From IMG/VR virus record IMGVR_UViG_3300042691_015481, positions 1-37,432 of that record: a DNA stretch of 37,432 bases. One strand, written 5' to 3'. Positions within the stretch are counted from its first letter, which is position 1. Every line of letters starts with the position of its first letter. A program made the position numbers and the translations under genes. The notes below the pieces were generated by a model. That model ran no database searches. It was given only the letters and a program-made list of their open reading frames with translations, and was not told where the DNA came from. Shown here one piece after another: positions 3,165 to 34,232 of this stretch. This DNA comes from a virus.

Positions 3165-3926
3165 ATGAGTGGTGAAGAACTGTTAGCGGAAGTACCCGCG
3201 CCGGAACAGGTAGCGACGGCAGCTCCTGAGCCCGATGTTTCAGCGCCGGAAGTTGGAGAGCAGGCAGAGCCCAAGACCTTCACACAAGAAGAGCTTGACG
3301 CGATTGTCAGCAAACGGCTTGCAAGAGAGCAGCGTAAGTGGGAAAGGACTCAGCAGCAGAAAGCGCCGGCACAACCGGTCGAACTGCCGCCAGCAGACCA
3401 GTTTGAAAGCGTAGAGGCGTATGCCGATGCGCTGGCTTTGCGTAAAGCGGAGCAACTGATTCAGCAGCGAACGGTTCAGCAGCAGCAGACTGAGGTTCTT
3501 GAGGCTTATCACGACCGCGAAGAAGAAGCGCGGGGTAAGTACAATGACTTTGAACAAGTCGCGTATAACCCGAATCTTCCGATTACGAACGTGATGGCTG
3601 AGACGATTCACGCTTCTGATATTGGCCCCGATTTGGCTTATTACCTTGGGTCCAATCCGAAAGAAGCTGACCGTATTTCCCGGTTATCGCCGTATTTGCA
3701 AGCGAAAGAAATTGGCCGTCTGGAAGCCAAATTGGTTTCTGAGCCGGTAACAAAACGGGTAACTAACGCGCCAGAGCCTATTCAACCCGGTAAACCGCGA
3801 AGTGCTTCGGCACCGAGCTTTGATACCACTGACCCTCGGTCTATCAAAAGTATGACCGCATCGCAGTGGATTGAGGCCGAGCGGCAACGCCAGATGAAGA
3901 AGCTAGAAGCGCAAAGACTTCGCTAA
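3165..3926 (+). CDS. Capsid scaffolding protein
   Basis: This 253-aa protein lies directly before the coat gene, the usual position of scaffolding proteins, which guide procapsid assembly and leave before DNA fills the head. The composition fits. The N-terminus is acidic and Pro/Ala-rich; residues from about 40 onward are charged and Gln-rich (EELDAIVSKRLAREQRKWERTQQQ), a pattern common to phage scaffolds; and the C-terminal part (SASQWIEAERQRQMKK-like) is short and basic and could form the coat-binding helix. P22 gp8 is 303 aa, so this one is somewhat shorter. A good ribosome binding site (AAGGAG, 3154-3159) lies six bases before the ATG. Confidence 0.85.
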   Translation: MSGEELLAEVPAPEQVATAAPEPDVSAPEVGEQAEPKTFTQEELDAIVSKRLAREQRKWERTQQQKAPAQPVELPPADQFESVEAYADALALRKAEQLIQQRTVQQQQTEVLEAYHDREEEARGKYNDFEQVAYNPNLPITNVMAETIHASDIGPDLAYYLGSNPKEADRISRLSPYLQAKEIGRLEAKLVSEPVTKRVTNAPEPIQPGKPRSASAPSFDTTDPRSIKSMTASQWIEAERQRQMKKLEAQRLR

Positions 3927-3938
3927 CTAGGAGATATC

Positions 3939-5153
3939 ATGTCTAACTCAATCCTTACGATTGATATGATCACTCGGAAAGCTCTCGAAATCCTTGAGAA
4001 CAATCTGGTGATTTCCCGCAACGTGAACCGTCAATACGACGATTCCTTTGCCGTCGAGGGCGCCAAAATTGGCTCGACCCTCCGCATCCGTCTGCCTGAC
4101 CGCGCGCTCGTCACCGATGGCGCTGCCCTCCAGGTGCAGAACGACAACGAACAGTTCACCACCCTGACTGTTGCTTCGCAGAAGCACATCGGCGTGAACT
4201 TTACTTCTGCCGAACTCACCATGCAGTTGGATGACTTTGCGGAACGTGTGCTGAAACCCCGCGTTAGTCAGCTGGCTGCTTCGGTTGATGCCGATGTCGC
4301 GAATGCGTACAAGAGCATCTTCCAGACGGTTGGCACCCCAGGCACCACCCCGGCTACTTCGCTTGTTCTGTTGCAGGCGCAGCAGAAACTGAACGAATCC
4401 GCAGCTGGTATGGCTCCGCGCTACGCCACCGTCAACCCGGCTGCGAACGCTGGTTTGGTTGAAGGCATGAAAGGCCTCTTTAACCCGGTTGACACCGTCA
4501 GCCGTCAGTTTAAGAACGGCATGATGGGTCAGGGCGTTCTTGGCTTTGACGAAATCAACATGTCGCAGTCCATCGTCCAGCACACCACCGGCAGCCGCTC
4601 GACTTCCGACACCATTCTGGTGAACGGTGCGGTTAGCACGCAGGGCGCGTCTACCATCAACATCGATGGCGGCACGGGTTCGGCAACCATCAATGCTGGC
4701 GACGTGTTCACGATTGCCGGCGTTTACGCCGTCAACCCGCAGACCCGTCAGTCCACCGGCTCGCTTCAGCAGTTTGTCTGCACCGCGACCGCCACCGCGT
4801 CTAGCGGCGCGTGGACCAGCGTGGCAATTTCGCCGGCTATTTACACCAGCACGAACGCTCTGGCTACCGTGGACTCGTTCCCGGCTGACAACGCCGCCGT
4901 GACTTTTGTTGGCACTGCTTCGACCCAGTACCCGCAGAACCTGGTCTATCATAAGGATGCCATCACGTTGGCGACCGCCGACCTTCTGCTTCCGCAGGGC
5001 GTCGATATGGCTTCGCGCCAGGTCCACAACGGCATCAGCTTGCGCGTTGTTCGTCAGTACGACATCAACAACGACCGTATGCCCTGCCGTATTGACGTGC
5101 TGTATGGTTACTCCACTATCCGGCCACCGATGGCTTGCCGGTTGTGGGGCTAA
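3939..5153 (+). CDS. Major capsid (coat) protein, P22 gp5-like
   Basis: The 404-aa product matches the P22 coat family pattern: N-terminal ITRKALEILENNLVISRNVNRQYDDSFA, then GAKIGSTLRIRLPDR, VGVNFTSAELT-like (IGVNFTSAELTMQLDDF) and FAERVLKPRVSQLAA. These are the segments that form the HK97-type fold's E-loop and spine in this family. P22 gp5 is 430 aa. The central part (about 190-320) is Thr/Ser/Gly-rich and probably contains the inserted surface domain. The C-terminus returns to conserved text, with LRVVRQYDINNDRMPCRIDVLYG. It starts at ATG 3939 with AGGAGA upstream and follows the scaffold by 12 bases. Confidence 0.95.
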   Translation: MSNSILTIDMITRKALEILENNLVISRNVNRQYDDSFAVEGAKIGSTLRIRLPDRALVTDGAALQVQNDNEQFTTLTVASQKHIGVNFTSAELTMQLDDFAERVLKPRVSQLAASVDADVANAYKSIFQTVGTPGTTPATSLVLLQAQQKLNESAAGMAPRYATVNPAANAGLVEGMKGLFNPVDTVSRQFKNGMMGQGVLGFDEINMSQSIVQHTTGSRSTSDTILVNGAVSTQGASTINIDGGTGSATINAGDVFTIAGVYAVNPQTRQSTGSLQQFVCTATATASSGAWTSVAISPAIYTSTNALATVDSFPADNAAVTFVGTASTQYPQNLVYHKDAITLATADLLLPQGVDMASRQVHNGISLRVVRQYDINNDRMPCRIDVLYGYSTIRPPMACRLWG

Positions 5154-9014: not shown

Positions 9015-10444
9015 TGAAAATGCCAATTCTGGGGCAGGCGTATGTGGCTCGCAGCGTCAACGCTGCGGACAACCGCATGGTCAATCTGTACCCCGAGGCG
9101 ACGCCCGAAAACGGCAAAGACGCTGGCTTTCTCAACCGCGCGCCTGGTCTGCGGCTGTTAGCGACGTTAGGGACTGGCCCTGTGCGCGGGCTGTGGCAAT
9201 TTGGGGCGTACGGCTATGCGGTGTCTGGCAACACGCTATACAAAATAGACTCAGCGTGGACCGCAACTGTACTGGGCACGGTGTCTGGCAGTGGGCCGGT
9301 CAGCATGACCGACAATGGCACGCAGCTGTTCGTTGCGTGCAACCCGCTCAGCTACATCTACAACGCCAGCACCGGCGTGTTCGCGCAAATTACCGACCCT
9401 GACTTTCCTGGCGCGGTAACGGTGGGGTATTTGGACGGGTACTTCGTGTTCAACGAACCCAATTCGCAAAGGATTTGGGTCACTCAGTTGCTGGATGGAA
9501 CGTCGGTAGATCCGTTGGATTTTGCTAGCGCCGAAGGTTCCCCTGACGGTCTGCTTGCCATTGCGATTGACCACCGCGAGGCGTGGCTGTTTGGCACCAA
9601 CACCGTTGAGGTGTGGTACGACTCAGGCGCGGCAGCGTTTCCGCTGGAGCGCATACAGGGCGCATTTAACGAGCTTGGTTGCGCGGCTCCGTATTCAGTA
9701 GCCAAGATGGACAATGGGCTATTCTGGTTGGGCTCCGACGCCCGTGGCAACGGTATGGTCTACCGGGCGAACGGTTACACCGGTCAACGGATTAGCACAC
9801 ACGCCATAGAGTTTGCCATTCAAGGCTACGCGACCATCTCCGACGCCATTGGCTACACTTACCAGCAGGACGGCCATTCGTTTTATGTGCTGATTTTTCC
9901 AACCGGCAACGCTACTTGGGTGTACGACGTTGCAACCGGCGCTTGGCATGAACGGGCCGCGTTCAGCAACGGCCAATTTACGCGGCATATCAGCAACTGC
10001 CAAATGAATTACAACAACGAAATCGTGGTGGGTGATTACGCCAACGGCAATATCTATGCGTTTGACCTCGATGTTTATGCGGACAACGGCGCGGTACAGC
10101 GTTGGCTTCGGTCGTGGCGAGCGCTGCCATCTGGGCAAAACAACCTAAAGCGAACGGCGCAGCACTCGCTACAGCTTGACTGCGAAACGGGCGTTGGCCT
10201 TAACACCGGGCAAGGCAGTGACCCTCAAGCCATGCTTCGTTGGTCTGATGATGGCGGTCACACTTGGTCAAACGAACATTGGACATCAATGGGCGCGATT
10301 GGGTCGTATGGCACGCGGGCCATTTGGCGCCGGTTAGGGATGACGGAAAAGATCCGAGACAGGGTTTACGAAGTGTCCGGCACCGACCCAGTAAAAGTAG
10401 CCATTATCGGCGCTGAATTGACCGTATCTGCAACTAATGGCTGA
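9014..10444 (+). CDS. Packaged-DNA stabilisation protein, P22 gp10-like
   Basis: The 476-aa product is close to P22 gp10 (472 aa). That protein forms a hexameric ring below gp4 and helps close the portal channel after packaging. The N-terminal signature QAYVARSVNAADNRMVNLYPE and the later DGYFVFNEPNSQRIWVTQLLDG, AFNELGCAAPYSVAKMDNGLFWLG are typical of this family. I start at ATG 9014, which overlaps the previous stop; ATG 9020 (MPILGQAYV) is equally possible. The last eight bases overlap the next gene's start. Order gp4-gp10 is as in P22, with the small HAD-like gene inserted. Confidence 0.92.
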   Translation: MKMPILGQAYVARSVNAADNRMVNLYPEATPENGKDAGFLNRAPGLRLLATLGTGPVRGLWQFGAYGYAVSGNTLYKIDSAWTATVLGTVSGSGPVSMTDNGTQLFVACNPLSYIYNASTGVFAQITDPDFPGAVTVGYLDGYFVFNEPNSQRIWVTQLLDGTSVDPLDFASAEGSPDGLLAIAIDHREAWLFGTNTVEVWYDSGAAAFPLERIQGAFNELGCAAPYSVAKMDNGLFWLGSDARGNGMVYRANGYTGQRISTHAIEFAIQGYATISDAIGYTYQQDGHSFYVLIFPTGNATWVYDVATGAWHERAAFSNGQFTRHISNCQMNYNNEIVVGDYANGNIYAFDLDVYADNGAVQRWLRSWRALPSGQNNLKRTAQHSLQLDCETGVGLNTGQGSDPQAMLRWSDDGGHTWSNEHWTSMGAIGSYGTRAIWRRLGMTEKIRDRVYEVSGTDPVKVAIIGAELTVSATNG

Positions 10445-12449
10445 CAATACCACTAATATCACACCACCACGCGTTCCATTTTTGGACGCGCGAAACGGTC
10501 AAATATCACGCGAGTGGTATCGATTCTTTCTAAACCTGTTCACCATTACCGGCAACGGAACCGGCGTTACGCCTATTGCAAATGGCGGAACAAACTCCAC
10601 GTCTACGCCGCAATCAGGCGCCATAGCGTATGGTGACGGCGCGTCATATAGATTTACGACGGTTGGCTTGCCCGGACAAATATTGACCAGCAACGGCGCC
10701 GGTTCGCCGGGGTGGACTACGGCGGCAGGGGGCTCTGTCACCAGCGTGGATGTATCTGGCGGCACCACCGGGTTTACGACGTCGGGCGGCCCCATAACAT
10801 CGTCGGGCACCATTACGTTGGGCGGAACATTAGCAATCGCCAATGGCGGCACTAATTCATCCGCAACCCCTACTGCTGGGGCCGTCCCATACGGCACCGG
10901 CACGGCGTATGATTTTACTGCGGTTGGCACTGTAGGTCAGGTGCTGACCAGCGCAGGTGCTGGCACGCCTACTTGGGCCACACCAACCACTGGCACAGTT
11001 TCTAGCGTTGATGTATCAGGTGGCACAACGGGCTTAACCACTTCGGGTGGCCCAATTACCAGTTCCGGCACCATTACGTTAGGCGGAACTTTGGCTATCG
11101 CTAACGGCGGTACGAACGGTACAGCGACACCCACAGCCGGGGCCGTTCCTTACGGCACCGGTACGGCGTTTGGCTTTACCGTTGCCGGTACGTCCGGCCA
11201 AGTGCTGACTAGCGCTGGCGCTGGTATACCTACTTGGACCACCCCAACTACCGGCACGGTGACTAGCGTTGGGCAGACGTTTACCGGCGGCCTCATATCG
11301 GTAACCGGGTCGCCTGTTACCGGGTCTGGCACGTTGGCGTTAACGGTTGCGGGGACGTCGGGCGGCGTTCCTTACTTTTCATCCGCAAGCACCTGGGCGT
11401 CGTCGGCGACGTTAGCGGCGAATGCTTTGGTCATCGGCGGCGGCGCGGGCGTAGCGCCTGCGACCACTACAACGGGCACAGGTGTTGTCACCGCGTTGGG
11501 CGTCAACACTGGAACTGCCGGCGCGTTTGTCGTCAACGGCGGCGCGCTGGGCACGCCGTCCAGCGGCACGGTGACTAACCTGACCGGTACGGCGTCCATC
11601 AACATCAACGGCACTGTAGGTGCTACAACACCCACCACCGGCGTGTTCACTACGGTGGTCGCCAATACCAGCGCGGGCGTAGGCGCTATCGCACCAGCGG
11701 GCACTAATTTTTATAACGTCAAAAACATTACAGGTGCTACCGCTGCAAACGCCAACTATACTTTTGCGACTATCCAGAGCGACGTAACTTCCCAAGCTCG
11801 CGGGTATCTTACTAACTTAGGAACCGCCGCCACCGCGTTTACGTTATCAAACCTTAGACATTTTTACGCATTCCAAGGAACTATTGGCGCGGGGTCAACT
11901 GTAACCACCCAAATTGGGTTTTACGCAGAAAACAATTTAATTGGCGCTACCAATAACTATGGTTTTGTGGCGGGTGATACCGCCGCAGTAACCGCAGGCA
12001 AAACGGCTTACGGGTTCTACTCCGGCGTCAACACTGCCTCGGGAGGCGGTACAACTTGGGGTTTTTACGCAGCAGGTACGACCAACAATTATTTTGGCGG
12101 CAAAGTCGGTATTAGCCGAACCCCGACGACCAACTTGGATGTCAACGGCTCGATTGCTTTTCGAGCGCCCAGCCTAACCAATGCGGCCACCTACACGGTA
12201 GCGACCACCGACGTATCGCTGCGGTTCACGACCACGGCTTGCACGGTCACCTTGCCGGCAGCCGCAAGTTTTACGGGCCGCGTTTTGTATTTGAACAACG
12301 TCACCGCGATTGCGGTGACTTCTGCCTCATCGAACGTCATTCCTTTGGGGTCCAACACGGCTGGCACAGCAATTCTTGCGGCGACCGCCGGTAAATTTGC
12401 TATGATTCAGTCCGATGGGACCAACTGGATTACAATGATGGCTAACTAA
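10437..12449 (+). CDS. Tail fibre protein in the tail-needle position
   Basis: This 670-aa protein occupies the place of the P22 tail needle gene (after gp10) but is not like gp26 in sequence. It starts with TPPRVPFLDARNGQISREWYRFFLNLF, a short N-terminal segment shared by many environmental phage tail proteins and probably the virion anchor. Residues about 44-272 are Gly/Ser/Thr-rich 87-residue modules containing VDVSGGTTG, SGTITLGGTLAIANGGTN and AVPYGTGTA. Residues about 430-560 look like a shaft, and the C-terminus (SIAFRAPSLTNAATYTVATTDVSLRF) is a beta-rich end domain common in fibres. Role: host binding, possibly also portal plug; the second part is inference. Confidence 0.8.
   Translation: MADNTTNITPPRVPFLDARNGQISREWYRFFLNLFTITGNGTGVTPIANGGTNSTSTPQSGAIAYGDGASYRFTTVGLPGQILTSNGAGSPGWTTAAGGSVTSVDVSGGTTGFTTSGGPITSSGTITLGGTLAIANGGTNSSATPTAGAVPYGTGTAYDFTAVGTVGQVLTSAGAGTPTWATPTTGTVSSVDVSGGTTGLTTSGGPITSSGTITLGGTLAIANGGTNGTATPTAGAVPYGTGTAFGFTVAGTSGQVLTSAGAGIPTWTTPTTGTVTSVGQTFTGGLISVTGSPVTGSGTLALTVAGTSGGVPYFSSASTWASSATLAANALVIGGGAGVAPATTTTGTGVVTALGVNTGTAGAFVVNGGALGTPSSGTVTNLTGTASININGTVGATTPTTGVFTTVVANTSAGVGAIAPAGTNFYNVKNITGATAANANYTFATIQSDVTSQARGYLTNLGTAATAFTLSNLRHFYAFQGTIGAGSTVTTQIGFYAENNLIGATNNYGFVAGDTAAVTAGKTAYGFYSGVNTASGGGTTWGFYAAGTTNNYFGGKVGISRTPTTNLDVNGSIAFRAPSLTNAATYTVATTDVSLRFTTTACTVTLPAAASFTGRVLYLNNVTAIAVTSASSNVIPLGSNTAGTAILAATAGKFAMIQSDGTNWITMMAN
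10731..11252 (+). repeat. 87-codon protein repeat in tail fibre
   Basis: Two near-complete 261-base modules (10731-10991 and 10992-11252) encode matching 87-residue units. Partial modules occur before (from about 10566) and after (from about 11253). The protein copies are nearly identical in stretches such as TSGGPITSSGTITLGGTLAIA, while the DNA copies differ at many third codon positions. The repeats are therefore old or kept by selection on the protein, not a recent slippage. Confidence 0.85.
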
Positions 12450-19837: not shown

Positions 19838-20036
19838 TCAGCCGGTCGAGGTACCAGCGGGCCTTCCGCAAGTCTTCGACCCCGTTCTTGCGTTTCCAGC
19901 GCCACAGGTACTTGATAGCGTTGGCGGTGCAGACCGCCTCGATGCCTTCCAGACCGACGGTGGCCGCCGCCAGCGCGTCGATACACTCGACGCCGCCGGC
20001 GGTGTAGTGTGCTGGATGGTTGACCGTATCGCTCAC
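19803..20036 (-). CDS. DUF3310 protein
   Basis: The 77-aa frame starts at GTG 20036, which overlaps the stop of the preceding gene (GTGA). It contains VNHPAHYTAGGVECIDAL and AIKYLWRWKRKNGVEDLRKARWYLDRLI, the core of DUF3310, a small phage family sometimes labelled nucleotide-kinase-like. Function is unknown; it is usually found among DNA-metabolism genes, as here. An upstream in-frame ATG at 20129 would add 31 residues that lie inside the previous gene, so GTG is preferred. It is the last gene of the minus-strand early operon and ends inside the convergent holin gene. Confidence 0.88.
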   Translation of the reverse strand: MSDTVNHPAHYTAGGVECIDALAAATVGLEGIEAVCTANAIKYLWRWKRKNGVEDLRKARWYLDRLISLSAVPQLPK

Positions 20037-20206
20037 GCCAGCATCGCCTTGCGCTCGCGCTCCATCCGCACCGTGCAGTAGCGCTGGTGCAGGCGCAGCA
20101 TAATGGTCAGGCGCCGAGCCCCGGCGCACTCCTCATCCAGCATCTGCTTCACTTCGTCTTCGGTCATCGTTGGCAAGTTCGCCAACAGTTCGCGCCACGT
20201 CATCAT
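20033..20206 (-). CDS. Small helical protein, unknown
   Basis: This 57-aa frame begins MMTWRELLANLPTMTEDEVKQML and has GGAGG upstream (AGGAGGCACTTAA then ATG), although that site lies inside the helicase gene. The ATG overlaps the helicase stop (ATGA), and its own stop overlaps the DUF3310 start. It is a charged helix with Arg/Glu-rich ends (LHQRYCTVRMERERKAMLA). Similar short proteins with TWRELL and LHQRYxxVR accompany helicase and DUF3310 genes in other phages. Function unknown. Both overlaps support it as a true cistron. Confidence 0.75.
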   Translation of the reverse strand: MMTWRELLANLPTMTEDEVKQMLDEECAGARRLTIMLRLHQRYCTVRMERERKAMLA

Positions 20207-21501
20207 TTAAGTGCCTCCTGGGCAATGTCCGACACGCTGCGCTTATCGGCTAGCGCAGCCCAAATTTTCTCGTCTATCGTCTGCTCGGCCATAAAGACGT
20301 AGCACCATACCGCGTGCTTTTGCCCGCTGCGGTGCAGCCGTCCGATGGTCTGCTCATAGAGTTCCAGCGACCAAGGCAGCGACAGAAAAACCATCTTGCA
20401 CCCGCCATGCTGCAAGTTAAGGCCATGTCCGGCTGACCGGGGGTGCAGCAGGAGGATTTCGACTTTACCAGCGTTCCAGCGCTCGATAGCACGGTCATCC
20501 TCCAGCGTGACGGCGCGGGCGCCGTAGCGGGCCTTAAGGGTGGCGAGTTCAGCCTGATAGTTGTAAACGATTATTGTATTCGCATACTGATTTTCTTCAA
20601 GCAACTCGTCCAGCCGCACCAGCTTGTGGTTGCTGAACCACTCGGTGCCGGTGTCGCCGTAGACGAACCCCGACGCCATCTGTTGCAGCTTGCCGGTCAC
20701 GGTCGCGGCGTTAATCGCCAGCGCCCGACTGTCGGGGAAGATGGCAACAAAGTTCTTCTTCATTGCGTCGTAGGGCGCGCGGTCGAACAGCTGAGTGACG
20801 ACCGGGACCGTGTGCAGCGGCGGCAGTGTGTCGCTGTAGTCGCCGGGGTCAAGCAGGAAGGTAGCCGGCTTGATGCGGGCCATGACCATCTCAAGCGACC
20901 CCGGCACCGGCGTCCACTCCTGATGTTCGCGGTTGACGCAGTAGAAGTACTGCTGAAGGAACGCGCCCTTGGACCGGCCCAGCAGGTTCTTATCGACTAT
21001 CTTGCACTGGCCGAACACGTCTTCCAGCCCGTTAGACGTGAATGAGCCAGTCAAGCCCCAGCGTATCTTCATCGGCTCGATGACCTTCTCCAGCGCCTTG
21101 AACCTGGCGCCTGATGGGTTCTTGAGCCGGGTGAGTTCGTCGAACACGATGGCGTCGAAATTCAACCGCTGCGCGGCCAGCCACTGTAAGTTGTCGTAGT
21201 TCGTCACGACCACCTGAGCGCTTGACGCCAGCGCCGCCAGTCGCTCACCGGGTGAGCCTATGGCCACCGCCAGCGTCAGGCCGGGCGCCCACTTAGGTGC
21301 CTCGACCGGCCAAACGTCGGTGACGACGCGCTTAGGGGCCAGCACCAGCACCCGGCGCGCGGCGCCGGTGGCTAGGGCGTGTTGGATGGCGGTGAGCGTA
21401 ACCATAGTTTTCCCTGCACCGACCGGCGCTAAAATCAAGCCGCGCGGCGTGTTGAGCAGGAATTGAGCGGCTGCTAATTGATATGGGCGTGGCTTAAGCA
21501 T
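20203..21501 (-). CDS. SNF2/DEAD-type helicase
   Basis: This 432-aa superfamily 2 helicase starts at ATG 21501 (MLKPRPYQLAAAQFLLNTPRG) with GGAG eight bases upstream. Walker A is LAPVGAGKT (K31), Walker B is VFDELTRLKN, and motif VI is QTIGRLHRSGQKHAVWCY, the SNF2-type ending. It should couple ATP hydrolysis to DNA translocation or unwinding during replication or recombination. An ATG at 21561 lies inside the HNH gene and is not preferred. Its first 26 residues have a diverged copy at the start of the neighbouring HNH protein. It overlaps its neighbours by eight and four bases. Confidence 0.93.
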   Translation of the reverse strand: MLKPRPYQLAAAQFLLNTPRGLILAPVGAGKTMVTLTAIQHALATGAARRVLVLAPKRVVTDVWPVEAPKWAPGLTLAVAIGSPGERLAALASSAQVVVTNYDNLQWLAAQRLNFDAIVFDELTRLKNPSGARFKALEKVIEPMKIRWGLTGSFTSNGLEDVFGQCKIVDKNLLGRSKGAFLQQYFYCVNREHQEWTPVPGSLEMVMARIKPATFLLDPGDYSDTLPPLHTVPVVTQLFDRAPYDAMKKNFVAIFPDSRALAINAATVTGKLQQMASGFVYGDTGTEWFSNHKLVRLDELLEENQYANTIIVYNYQAELATLKARYGARAVTLEDDRAIERWNAGKVEILLLHPRSAGHGLNLQHGGCKMVFLSLPWSLELYEQTIGRLHRSGQKHAVWCYVFMAEQTIDEKIWAALADKRSVSDIAQEALK

Positions 21502-22057
21502 GGCGGGCGAACTCTCCAAATGTGTCGGCGCGCGCCTGCGCGGCAACCGCCGAAGCTTCATCTAGGGTGGCGAAACAACCGAAGGAAACTTGCTTTCCTG
21601 CAATGGACAGACGCACCTGCCAGCGGCGCACTTGCTTGTGCCAGTAGACGTTCTTGACGCCGCTCGTGTTGTCCTTGCGCGTTTTGGCGTTCCGCATGTT
21701 TTGCAAATGCGTGGCTGGGCGCAAGTTCGCAACCAAATTGTTGCCGGGGTTGCCGTCTATGTGATCGACAAACTTTGGCAGCCACCCATGCACCAGCAAG
21801 AACACGACCCGATGAACCGCGTAATGTTTCCGCCGCAAAGTGACGAACTGATACCCGTGCGGGTCTGGTGCCGGGGCAACCTCATCGCCGGGGTGTCTAA
21901 CTGACGTGCCGCGCCCAGCCTTTATCCGCCAGTACAGCTTGCCCTCGCGGTACTCCCATACGCTGGGCACGATGGCCCATTCAGGGGCTAGGACCATGCT
22001 GCGCGGCGTGTTGAGCAGGAAGGCGGCGCCTGCGGTCTGGTAGGGTCTTAGTTGCAT
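21494..22057 (-). CDS. HNH endonuclease with AP2 domain and helicase-like N-terminus
   Basis: This 187-aa protein has three parts. Residues 1-26 (MQLRPYQTAGAAFLLNTPRS) copy the start of the helicase that follows. Residues about 30-115 are an HNH nuclease: VWEYREGKLYWRI, then AVHRVVFLLVHGWLP and VDHIDGNPGNNLVANLR, where the His and Asn residues form the metal-binding site. Residues about 130-187 are an AP2-type DNA-binding domain (SGVKNVYWHKQVRRWQVRL, FATLDEASAVAAQ). HNH-AP2 proteins are usually free-standing homing endonucleases. It overlaps the methyltransferase stop by 10 bases and the helicase start by eight. The Walker A motif of the copied segment is absent, so the N-terminus is not a helicase. 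Confidence 0.92.
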   Translation of the reverse strand: MQLRPYQTAGAAFLLNTPRSMVLAPEWAIVPSVWEYREGKLYWRIKAGRGTSVRHPGDEVAPAPDPHGYQFVTLRRKHYAVHRVVFLLVHGWLPKFVDHIDGNPGNNLVANLRPATHLQNMRNAKTRKDNTSGVKNVYWHKQVRRWQVRLSIAGKQVSFGCFATLDEASAVAAQARADTFGEFARHA

Positions 22058-23016
22058 GATAGATACGCCTCTATGAGCGCTTGCGCGACTTGCGGGACGA
22101 TGGCGTTGCCGTAGGCGCGCAGGCGTCCCACTCTGGCGGTAGACCCATGAGCCAACGGGAATGTGCCGGGTTCAACTGGCCGGGCTTTTCCGTCTCGGCA
22201 GGGGAGCCAATCACAGTCGGCCCAAAAGTTAGCTGCGCCGTCACGTCCAGCGTGTCCGTGCTGATTTTCCCGTCTCTCATGCGCCCCCCCAGATACCCAC
22301 CCTTGTGGTCGCGTGTCGATGTCGTTGGCCAACCCGACAAAAACTGATTCATGTCCCGCCCCAAGCATTTCTGGTTTGAATCCACATGTGTTCTTGCTCC
22401 CTCCACATTGTCTGATGCTTGCGGTGTGGCCCAACTCGCCAGCGTCGCCTGCGTGTTCAACCCCCCGCTGCGTGTCCCATCCAACTCGCGAATCCCATTC
22501 CCGTCGCTTGTTGTTGTTGTTAGCCACGAACCACAATCGTTGTCTGATGTGCGGGGCGCCGACGCCCGCAGCAGGCATACCGACCGCCCCGCAGGCGTAG
22601 TCTTCACTTTCCAAGTCAGCTTGAACAAGGTCGAGCCAGCCGTGGTTAACTGCTGCTTCAACCTGCTCTCCAAAGATGACTGCAGGGCGGCGCTGGCGGA
22701 TGAGATTGAACCAGTCGGGCCAGAGGTGGCGTTCATCGGCGGTGCCGAGTCGGGCGCCGGCGCTAGAGAAAGGCTGGCAAGGGCAACTACCTGTCCAAAC
22801 AGGTCGGTCATCGGGCCATCCGGCGAGTCTGAGGGCGTGACTCCAGACGCCGATTCCGGCGAAAAAGTGACATTGAACAAATCCGCTAAGGTCTTCTGGT
22901 GCGACATCTTTAATGCTCCGTTCGTCCACAACGCCTGGCGCTATATGGCCGGCGGCGATTAAGTTCCTAAGCCACTGCGCGGCGAAGGGGTCTATTTCGT
23001 TGTAGTAAGCAGCCAC
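22048..23016 (-). CDS. DNA cytosine-5 methyltransferase
   Basis: I start at GTG 23016, giving 322 aa beginning MAAYYNEIDPFAAQWLRNLIAAGHIAPG, the usual start of phage C5 methyltransferases; AAGGAGG lies 10 bases upstream. An ATG at 23139 would overlap the nuclease gene by 148 bases. Motif I is FFAGIGVWSHALRLAGW (AdoMet binding). Motif IV is SCPCQPFSSAG with catalytic C80. The ENV motif appears as GEQVEAAV. QRLWFVA is motif VIII, and YGNAIVPQVAQALIEAYL is motif X. It should methylate C5 of cytosine in a sequence I cannot predict, probably protecting phage DNA. A 278-aa ORF lies inside it in another frame. Confidence 0.93.
   Translation of the reverse strand: MAAYYNEIDPFAAQWLRNLIAAGHIAPGVVDERSIKDVAPEDLSGFVQCHFFAGIGVWSHALRLAGWPDDRPVWTGSCPCQPFSSAGARLGTADERHLWPDWFNLIRQRRPAVIFGEQVEAAVNHGWLDLVQADLESEDYACGAVGMPAAGVGAPHIRQRLWFVANNNNKRREWDSRVGWDTQRGVEHAGDAGELGHTASIRQCGGSKNTCGFKPEMLGAGHESVFVGLANDIDTRPQGWVSGGAHERRENQHGHAGRDGAANFWADCDWLPCRDGKARPVEPGTFPLAHGSTARVGRLRAYGNAIVPQVAQALIEAYLSCN
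22071..22907 (-). CDS. Overlapping-frame gene inside the methyltransferase
   Basis: This 278-aa frame lies wholly inside the methyltransferase gene, on the same strand in a different frame. It starts at ATG 22907 with GGAG eight bases upstream; a longer version from TTG 22931 is also open. The product begins MSHQKTLADLFNVTFSPESAS, has AALQSSLESRLKQQLTTAGSTLFKLTWKVK, repeated WxTPQ/TT-type segments, and ends LNPAHSRWLMGLPPEWDACAPT then SSRKSRKRS. I recognise this pattern (SRLKQRL...GSTLFKLTWK...LNPAHSRWLMG) from many phage proteins deposited as unknowns. That argues it is a conserved, translated gene, not a shadow. Function unknown; low-complexity Ser/Thr-rich middle. Confidence 0.6.
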   Translation of the reverse strand: MSHQKTLADLFNVTFSPESASGVTPSDSPDGPMTDLFGQVVALASLSLAPAPDSAPPMNATSGPTGSISSASAALQSSLESRLKQQLTTAGSTLFKLTWKVKTTPAGRSVCLLRASAPRTSDNDCGSWLTTTTSDGNGIRELDGTRSGGLNTQATLASWATPQASDNVEGARTHVDSNQKCLGRDMNQFLSGWPTTSTRDHKGGYLGGRMRDGKISTDTLDVTAQLTFGPTVIGSPAETEKPGQLNPAHSRWLMGLPPEWDACAPTATPSSRKSRKRS

Positions 23017-23267
23017 TGGTCCACATCCTCCTTCGTCCACAGGACGACGTAGTTTTGCCCCAAGCGCAGCATGTCTTCGCGAAACACCTTCTGGAGTTCC
23101 GACAGCCGGCCACCGGTTGTTTTGAGTTCCACGAACCACGTCTGACCGGGCAGACAGACTACCCGGTCGGCGACGCCGCGGTGGGCGACGCTGGCGAACT
23201 TATACGCCATGCCGCCCTGCGCCTTGACTCGCTGGACCAAGTACCGCTCGATGACTTTCTCAAGCAC
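22992..23267 (-). CDS. VRR-NUC domain nuclease
   Basis: This 91-aa protein starts at GTG 23267 (LEKVIERYLVQRVKAQGG) and is a stand-alone VRR-NUC domain. That is a compact PD-(D/E)XK nuclease fold, which in phages probably resolves branched DNA or trims ends. The core is VAHRGVADRVVCLPGQTWFVELKTTGGRLSELQ: the Asp of GVADRVV, the Glu and Lys of VELK, and the following Gln form the active site. Family members often act as nicking or junction-resolving enzymes. It overlaps the 50-aa gene by eight bases upstream and the methyltransferase start by 25 bases downstream. Confidence 0.92.
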   Translation of the reverse strand: MLEKVIERYLVQRVKAQGGMAYKFASVAHRGVADRVVCLPGQTWFVELKTTGGRLSELQKVFREDMLRLGQNYVVLWTKEDVDQWLLTTTK

Positions 23268-23412
23268 GACGCTGCCCCCAGTCGTTGTAGTTGCCTTTCT
23301 CCGGGCTGTTCGCCCGGTGCAGCAGCCACTTGGTGCCGAGCAGGCGCAGGGCCTGCTGGCGTTTGGCTTCCATGTCCGGGTCGTCCCAGACCGGCGGGGT
23401 GTCGTTATTCAT
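23260..23412 (-). CDS. Small unknown protein, 50 aa
   Basis: This frame starts at ATG 23412, overlapping the stop of the gene before it (ATGA). The sequence begins MNNDTPPVWDDPDMEAKRQQALRLLGTKWLLHRANSPEKG. It has one amphipathic helix and no recognised motif. Short phage proteins with DDPDMEAKRxxALRxLGxKWLLH-like text occur beside VRR-NUC genes, which supports coding. It overlaps VRR-NUC by eight bases. Function unknown. Confidence 0.65.
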   Translation of the reverse strand: MNNDTPPVWDDPDMEAKRQQALRLLGTKWLLHRANSPEKGNYNDWGQRRA

Positions 23413-23597
23413 CGCTTCACCCGCCTCACGTAAATCTCGGTTCCGTCGGGCCACACCGCCGCTGCGTTTTCGGCAAACGCCGCAAGCATCCATCGACCGG
23501 CGTAAGTGCCGTCGATAGTGCCGATAAGTTCGTACTCATCCGGCTCTGCCTTGACCAATTCCTTGGCCAACTCCTCAACCGTCACAAACTTACTCAT
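23409..23597 (-). CDS. Small unknown protein, 62 aa
   Basis: Starts at ATG 23597 with GGAG seven bases upstream. The sequence MSKFVTVEELAKELVKAEPDEYELIGTIDG is acidic in its first half, with a short beta-like second half (RWMLAAFAENAAAVWPDGTEIYVRRVKR). I do not recognise a family. It is one of four small genes at the head of the minus-strand operon, overlapped by eight bases with the gene before and by four with the gene after. Tight packing and a good ribosome site support it as real. Confidence 0.65.
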   Translation of the reverse strand: MSKFVTVEELAKELVKAEPDEYELIGTIDGTYAGRWMLAAFAENAAAVWPDGTEIYVRRVKR

Positions 23598-31171: not shown

Positions 31172-31430
31172 CTGGCGGGCTGGCGGGCGCTGGCGGGCGG
31201 GCGCTGGCGGGCGGGCGCTGGCGGGCGCTGGCGGGCGCTGGCGGGCGGGCGCTGGCGGGCGCTGGCGGGCGCTGGCGGGCGCTGGCGGGCGCTGGCGGGC
31301 GCTGGCGGGCGCTGGCGGGCGGGCGCTGGCGGGCGCTGGCGGGCGCTGGCGGGCGCTGGCGGGCGCTGGCGGGCGCTGGCGGGCGCTGGCGGGCGGGCGC
31401 TGGCGGGCGCTGGCGGGCGCTGGCCGGGCT
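31172..31430 (+). repeat. G-rich 10-bp tandem array, about 24 copies
   Basis: About 24 copies of GCTGGCGGGC, some separated by an extra GGGC (14-bp variants), fill 31172-31430. Every unit has a GGG run and neighbouring runs are seven bases apart (CGCTGGC), so the plus strand fits the pattern of G-quadruplexes. The array lies between the end of the plus-strand replication operon and the terminator of the minus-strand operon, so transcription converges on it. Long frames in it (RWRAGAGG or PPAPASARQ repeats) look like artefacts of the repeat. Confidence 0.9.
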
Positions 31431-31441
31431 GGTCGTCGGGC

Positions 31442-33905: not shown

Positions 33906-33976
33906 TAGACTTGCTGATCTTACCTACACCGCCCCCTCATCCCACACTCGCGCCGTCACCCCGCGCGTGCAGCGCC

Positions 33977-34200
33977 GTCACCGTCACCGTCACCGTCACC
34001 GTCACCGTCACCGTCACCGTCACCGTCACCGTCACCGCCACCGCCACCGCCTGCCCGTCACCGCCACCGCCACCGCCTGCCCGTCACCGTCACCGTCACC
34101 GGCTGCCGGCCTGCCCGGCTGCCCGTCACCGTCACCGTCACCGGCTGCCCGTCACCGTCACCGGCTGCCCGTCTGCCCGCCTGCCCGCCTGCCCGTCTGC
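33977..34200 (+). repeat. GTCACC hexamer array and related repeats
   Basis: Ten uninterrupted GTCACC copies occupy 33977-34036. GCCACC copies, more GTCACC blocks and CTGCCC units follow to about 34200. The top strand is nearly all pyrimidine plus G, with strong strand asymmetry. Frames through it encode only HRHRHR or VTVTVT repeats, so it is unlikely to be coding. It could be an iteron array for a replication protein or a slippage product. Confidence 0.85.
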
Positions 34201-34232
34201 CCGCCTACAATGCGCCACAAGACGCCAGGTGC

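Follow-up and report, generated by a model that had tools for sequence, protein, structure and literature searches.

A phage HNH endonuclease gene that interrupts a helicase gene before its Walker A motif and appears to bring a replacement for the helicase 5' end

Why should an HNH endonuclease gene begin with the start of a helicase gene when a complete helicase gene, with a similar start of its own, follows directly downstream? This is the arrangement found in the window, by which we mean the whole 37,432 nucleotide stretch analysed here (positions 1 to 37,432 of the IMG/VR virus record IMGVR_UViG_3300042691_015481). The features of the locus are as follows:

22057-21494, minus strand: HNH ORF, 187 aa, N-terminus beginning MQLRPYQTAGAAFLLNTPRSMVLAP
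21983..22057, minus strand: resident stub, original helicase codons 1-25, now HNH N-terminus and translation start (by comparison with HNH-free relatives)
21494..21982, minus strand: HNH nuclease proper, continuing the stub in frame after LAP, with an I-HmuI-like nuclease half and an AP2-like DNA-binding half
21494..21501, minus strand: overlap of HNH stop and helicase start, ATGCTTAA, common to the HNH family
21400..21501, minus strand: incoming helicase 5' segment (new start and Walker A, the latter in altered codons), reaching 8 codons past the insertion point
21400..21982, minus strand: tract inserted relative to the empty allele, 583 bp replacing 24 bp of resident helicase (codons 26-33; by comparison with L002-L012)
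20203..21501, minus strand: intact SNF2-type helicase, 432 aa (Pfam SNF2-rel_dom, ResIII, Helicase_C), its body being the resident gene

The helicase start at 21501 (minus strand) reads MLKPRPYQLAAAQFLLNTPRGLILAPVGAGKT, the helicase-like stretch at the HNH N-terminus ends ...MVLAP, and a protein comparison of the two copies gives E = 5e-9. A preliminary description of this DNA had reported both copies, a 21-base block shared by them and a nuclease text that begins exactly where Walker A would come, and all of these stand: the block is identical at 21442-21462 and 22001-22021 and no exact direct repeat in 21001-22400 exceeds it in length (300 shuffles give at most 15), and HNH-specific text begins directly after the proline codon that precedes Walker A (GCC CCT/GAA TGG, the slash marking the junction here and below). 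The HNH gene is freestanding, with its own stop overlapping the helicase start. A group I intron or an intein was considered and rejected, since Rfam gave no match, and hence no intron RNA, in 20000-23500 and the HNH ORF ends in a stop and is followed by a complete helicase.

Which of the two starts belongs to the resident gene? A scan of virus contigs with the window helicase yielded L002-L012, all of them without the HNH and with helicases 92-97% identical to that of the window, and the helicase genes of nine HNH-free near relatives were used to tell the resident copy from the incoming one. Where relatives have the same methyltransferase gene upstream, its 3' end adjoins a helicase starting MQLRPYQTAGAAFLL[D/N]TPRSMVLAPVGAGKTAMTLTAIQ or a close variant, and this type of start is the N-terminus of the window HNH. 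The window stub is likewise contiguous with the methyltransferase 3' end (as in HNH-free L002, L003, L006 and L009), the methyltransferase stop overlaps the stub ATG (ATGCAACTAA) in the same way, and the stub DNA is up to 93% identical to that of the HNH-free relatives. Since their helicases start like the HNH N-terminus and show the same overlap, the HNH carries the resident start. The window helicase start, on the other hand, is 60-66% identical in DNA to the HNH-free near relatives over 99 nt (to codon 33) and the sequence that follows is 91-95.5% identical; the switch is sharp and lies at nt +24 past the V of VGAGKT, with an edge that can be placed within a few bases. Of the 30 codons of the incoming part, 5 are identical to those of L002, 16 differ synonymously and 9 non-synonymously; for the next 326 helicase codons the figures are 282, 42 and 2, respectively. 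The third position differs from L002 in all six codons of VGAGKT, and the helicase body is 99% identical in amino acids to that of the same HNH-free phage. GKT and the residue after it are encoded by GGC AAG ACC GCT in the L002-type allele and by GGG AAA ACT ATG in the window helicase. Judged by these comparisons, the resident helicase gene is cut just before Walker A and the start in use now is the incoming one. The preliminary description was thus right that the HNH interrupts the helicase gene exactly before Walker A and that the resident 5' end supplies the HNH translation start, but it had taken the HNH N-terminus for the diverged copy, which is the wrong way round. No contig above 0.70 DNA identity over the 99 nt of the incoming segment was found as a donor. 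In its middle part (FLLNTPR, the 21-base block) the segment is of the local type; the incoming tract is therefore a mosaic or has undergone gene conversion.

Some other features of the window were noted in passing. The methyltransferase gene (22048-23139), which lies between a VRR-NUC gene and the helicase, is optional: it is missing in L005 and L010, and an unrelated ORF (ILIACEYSGIVRNAF...) takes its place in L004, so that the gap upstream of the helicase looks like a cargo site. A 286-aa ORF (22071-22931) shares the strand of the methyltransferase ORF and overlaps it in a different frame, and because a similar second frame is present in L356 it may be a real overlapping gene. Two strong tandem repeat arrays lie 3' of the primase gene, at 31179-31432 (GCTGGCGGGC x 24.5) and 33975-34206 (CCGTCA x 30.5, then CCGCCTGC units), and a 261-base unit is present in two tandem copies (75% matches) at 10743-11271, within the long ORF 10437-12449.

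The incoming start is found in other phages together with the nuclease. A search with it returned L105-L108, whose helicases are near 65% identity and start MLKPRPYQ...GKTM. In all of them a related HNH lies directly upstream, with a stop that overlaps the helicase start likewise. A scan with HNHs of this type gave loci L001, L108 and L177-L190, every one of them upstream of this helicase and all with the stop/start overlap (ATGCTTAA / ATGTTTAA / ATGCTTGA). The best match in a scan of a genome collection was 44% for a long alignment, and among the matches listed for cultivated phages nothing exceeded 41.5%; the clade is thus known here only from virus contigs. L001, a separate contig with the same structure that is 99.98% identical to the window over 4.2 kb, is the only other contig with the window's insertion, and a one-base length difference between the two shifts the methyltransferase frame.

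Five lineages retain a stub of the helicase start upstream of the HNH. It is fused in frame at LAP/EW in the window and L001, in L184 and in L189, and the fused junction CCT/GAATGG is identical in these three distant helicase lineages, which have different local stubs; in the L106 group and L188 the stub is unfused and ends LAPVGD-stop, and the HNH uses its own start codon. Seven types of HNH-positive loci have no stub (in several of these the HNH sits between the VRR-NUC gene and the helicase), so the stub is not required. The N-terminus of the window HNH is clearly helicase-related, as the preliminary description had claimed. It does not belong to the HNH family as a constant feature, since elsewhere in the clade the helicase stub is either missing or of a different, local type. 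The branching of the short HNH tree does not decide between one and several origins of the fused forms.

Does the insertion move? In a tree of helicase bodies built without the first ~40 codons, the HNH carriers are scattered, with 8 changes of which at least 7 are forced by well supported branches, and the window helicase branches among HNH-free sequences. Presence or absence of the HNH at one fixed site among close relatives is also observed directly, in the window and in two further occupied/empty pairs, L354/L369 and L350/L376. In the comparison of L354 (the phage of L189) with L369, ~240 nt of stub-side flank are 88-100% identical per 24-nt block, and the match then falls to 7/24 exactly at LAP/V; on the helicase side identity is regained at nt +24, which is also the right edge in the window. 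The left edge in L350/L376 is the same as in L354/L369. The right-hand edge of the incoming segment thus falls at the identical nucleotide in two unrelated occupied/empty pairs and, because this start is also found with related HNHs in many phages, it appears to travel with the nuclease as part of one element. Forms that look decayed are found as well: L357 keeps the replaced helicase start and has largely lost the HNH by deletion, and L356 (NLRPYQ/VKPRPYQ...GKTM, HNH absent) is probably the scar of recombination between a stub and the incoming copy. We suggest that the divergence between the two copies would slow such loss by recombination.

The residue that follows GKT of Walker A is related to the presence of the element. 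In a sample with 121 GKT-Ala helicases none of these has the HNH (0/121, re-checked with a broader HNH set; an ORF upstream of GKT-Ala helicases such as that of L004 was examined as a candidate and is not an HNH), and the 14 HNH carriers in the sample have Met after GKT in 12 cases and Cys in 2. HNH and residue change together in 7/7 independent pairs (p = 0.016). A pattern scan for GKT-Met found 19 contigs, some of them near-copies, and an HNH or its remnant is present in 15 of the 17 that have usable upstream DNA; L348 is GKT-Met with neither HNH nor scar. The corresponding scan for GKT-Cys found 23 contigs, 3 with and 20 without the HNH. The contrast of 121 Ala with 14 Met or Cys can thus not be fully diagnostic and, because GKT-Cys is common without the HNH, only the link with Met and the absence from Ala alleles are kept: in the sequences scanned, Met is the mark of the element's allele, the HNH is never found with Ala and Cys is a common HNH-free variant. 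No change in the first or second position of an Ala codon is silent; if the enzyme reads those bases, this would account for an amino-acid replacement at a mostly-Ala site.

What kind of enzyme is encoded? Pfam calls the nuclease domain HNH_3 (E 2.7e-12), its catalytic motif is intact with His, Asn and Asp positions invariant over 17 sequences, and the closest solved structure by profile is I-HmuI (1u3e, E 1.6e-5), with which and with whose relatives it shares the HNH fold of the nuclease half. I-HmuI is itself intron-encoded, whereas no intron RNA was found at the window locus. In a structure model the stub is disordered (residues 1-20, pLDDT mostly <50) and the nuclease is folded; Foldseek with this model matches the nuclease half to I-HmuI and the C-terminal half to AP2 domains, all with E-values >0.001. 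The HNH part of the "HNH-AP2" identification in the preliminary description is therefore borne out by Pfam; the AP2 part is not called by Pfam and has the model matches as its support. The window HNH is 57-65% identical to the HNHs at the same site in other phages. Its C-terminal half (21494-21650, LQNMRNAKTRKDNTSGVKNVYWHKQ) is unlike its clade (43-56%) and has a local resemblance to the HNH of L160, so its specificity could have shifted, and the protein may have a mosaic origin and an altered recognition of DNA.

We consider it very probable that the window contains a homing element that consists of an HNH endonuclease gene and its own resistant version of the 5' end of the target gene, with a predicted cut near Walker A. 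It would work as follows: In a mixed infection the putative nuclease would nick or cut a sensitive helicase allele at or next to the Walker A codons, and repair would copy the element into the break, the right end recombining within the helicase body and the left end being joined at the cut (codon 25). The first 25 codons of the recipient gene would be stranded as a stub, which in the window would give the HNH its ribosome site and start codon, and from the incoming segment the helicase would receive both a new start and a Walker A region that escapes recognition by the enzyme. The helicase would thus survive each invasion thanks to the element's rewritten, apparently uncuttable copy of its start.

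An account in terms of ordinary intronless homing, in which a freestanding upstream HNH takes the neighbouring resistant helicase allele with it by co-conversion and the stub arises only by accidental end-joining, with no role in mobility, has a smaller but appreciable chance of being correct. The several stub-free loci with the HNH between the VRR-NUC gene and the helicase would fit it, and co-conversion of flanks in intronless homing is documented for SegF and related freestanding endonucleases of T4 (PMC2988022), which likewise are phage systems with no intron. The T4 cut site, however, lies away from the site of endonuclease insertion, whereas here the gene appears to be entered at the cut site, its 5' end is replaced and a stub is left. 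The identical CCT/GAATGG junction in three distant lineages with different stubs is as expected from repeated homing with the stub serving as the left homology, and the end of the segment at the identical nucleotide in two pairs also argues against this account.

Two other histories were considered. In the preliminary description, the HNH breaks the helicase first, and a further event, either duplication or recombination with a related phage, then restores an intact start. The derivation of this start from another allele agrees with the difference between the copies and with the 60-66% tract, but a separate later event does not survive, since the same type of incoming start accompanies the HNH in many phages, in lineages with and without stubs, and a phage with a broken helicase would have needed to persist meanwhile; we regard the two-step history as improbable. 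A local tandem duplication of the helicase 5' end, with insertion of the HNH between the copies and subsequent drift, might be read from L189, whose two copies share 22/23 residues including the unusual YSRDRA. In the window, however, the downstream copy stands at 60-66% against 91-95.5% for the rest of the gene, with an edge placed within a few bases, and the upstream copy at up to 93%, and the shared MLKPRPYQ...GKTM signature also speaks against duplication in place, which we consider highly improbable. An assembly chimera, which might be suspected in a virus record of the metagenomic kind, is a negligible concern given the same structure in the separate contig L001 and the recurrence of the layout in other lineages.

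A close parallel to a homing element with its own replacement end is found in yeast. Whenever a WHO element (Torulaspora, Lachancea) homes, FBA1 receives a new 3' end and the old one stays behind, and cleavage has been shown (Coughlan et al. 2020, PMC7282813). Both systems have an endonuclease gene that adjoins its target, a resistant end swapped in, the old end left as a fragment and a chimeric target gene, with no intron or intein splicing. At the phage locus one target gene joins the element's end to the recipient's end (switch at +24 nt, two pairs), and the old end lies beyond the nuclease gene in the window, L184, L189, the L106 group and L188 and is absent at the other loci. The phage element does not belong to the WHO family: its enzyme is HNH/AP2 and its target the 5' end of a helicase gene, whereas the WHO enzyme is intein-derived with a zinc finger and acts at the 3' end of FBA1 in the yeast nuclear genome. 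At the phage locus the stranded stub can become the translation start of the nuclease, and cutting, shown for WHO, is predicted here. By this analogy, the phage element works like a WHO element in mirror image.

Mobile ORFs of fungal mitochondria (Allomyces atp6; Glomus atp6, atp9, cox2 and nad3) bring foreign C-termini (PMC3630166) and share with the phage element an inserted endonuclease ORF, a foreign, mostly synonymously different gene end and a left-over native end. They are mitochondrial, the Glomus atp6 case is of LAGLIDADG type, and their duplicate is C-terminal; an element of this kind was rejected for the window, where the duplicate is N-terminal. Our partial coverage of the literature found no phage precedent, and target-end replacement with a stub is not described in the phage homing endonuclease surveys searched (PMC10448857, PMC12724721).

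Are similar layouts present in other phage genes? A stub and a diverged duplicate surround HNHs in RusA-family resolvase genes (L192, L193, L194, L197 and L198; Pfam RusA), and in a lysozyme-like gene (L199/L200) the stub is fused to the HNH and the empty relatives L311/L312 match the stub. Forms with a C-terminal duplicate surround other HNHs in an Rz lysis gene (L216) and in a terminase-like gene (L223; named from its sequence, with no family search). In L223, a Pontibacter contig, the 3' end of the latter gene is duplicated (80% DNA identity) around an opposite-strand HNH, the whole arrangement being located at 3787-4540. The stub-plus-copy layout is not universal: it is present at 0/77 loci of other HNH families, with 2/150 mismatched control pairs matching, in a test that recovered 10/11 earlier-flagged loci as positive controls (L206, which was missed, stays weak). 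We lean, with some reserve, toward a general class of phage homing elements that would carry a recoded terminal piece of the target gene as a built-in rescue, in a 5' form (helicase, RusA, lysozyme) and a 3' form (Rz, terminase); in the 5' form the nuclease could take over the stranded start of the victim's gene as its own.

If the homing reading is correct, a selfish nuclease with no intron or intein can sit within the active-site Walker A sequence, which is highly conserved, of a replication gene and leave it unbroken by bringing a replacement for what it interrupts, which would explain abrupt hybrid 5' ends of phage replication genes. It makes the sharp prediction that GKT-Ala alleles are cut and GKT-Met alleles are not. 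The locus would offer a natural recoded rescue copy in a single gene family where empty, occupied, decayed and lost states all occur, and the general class, if true, would be a natural counterpart of engineered home-and-rescue gene drives.
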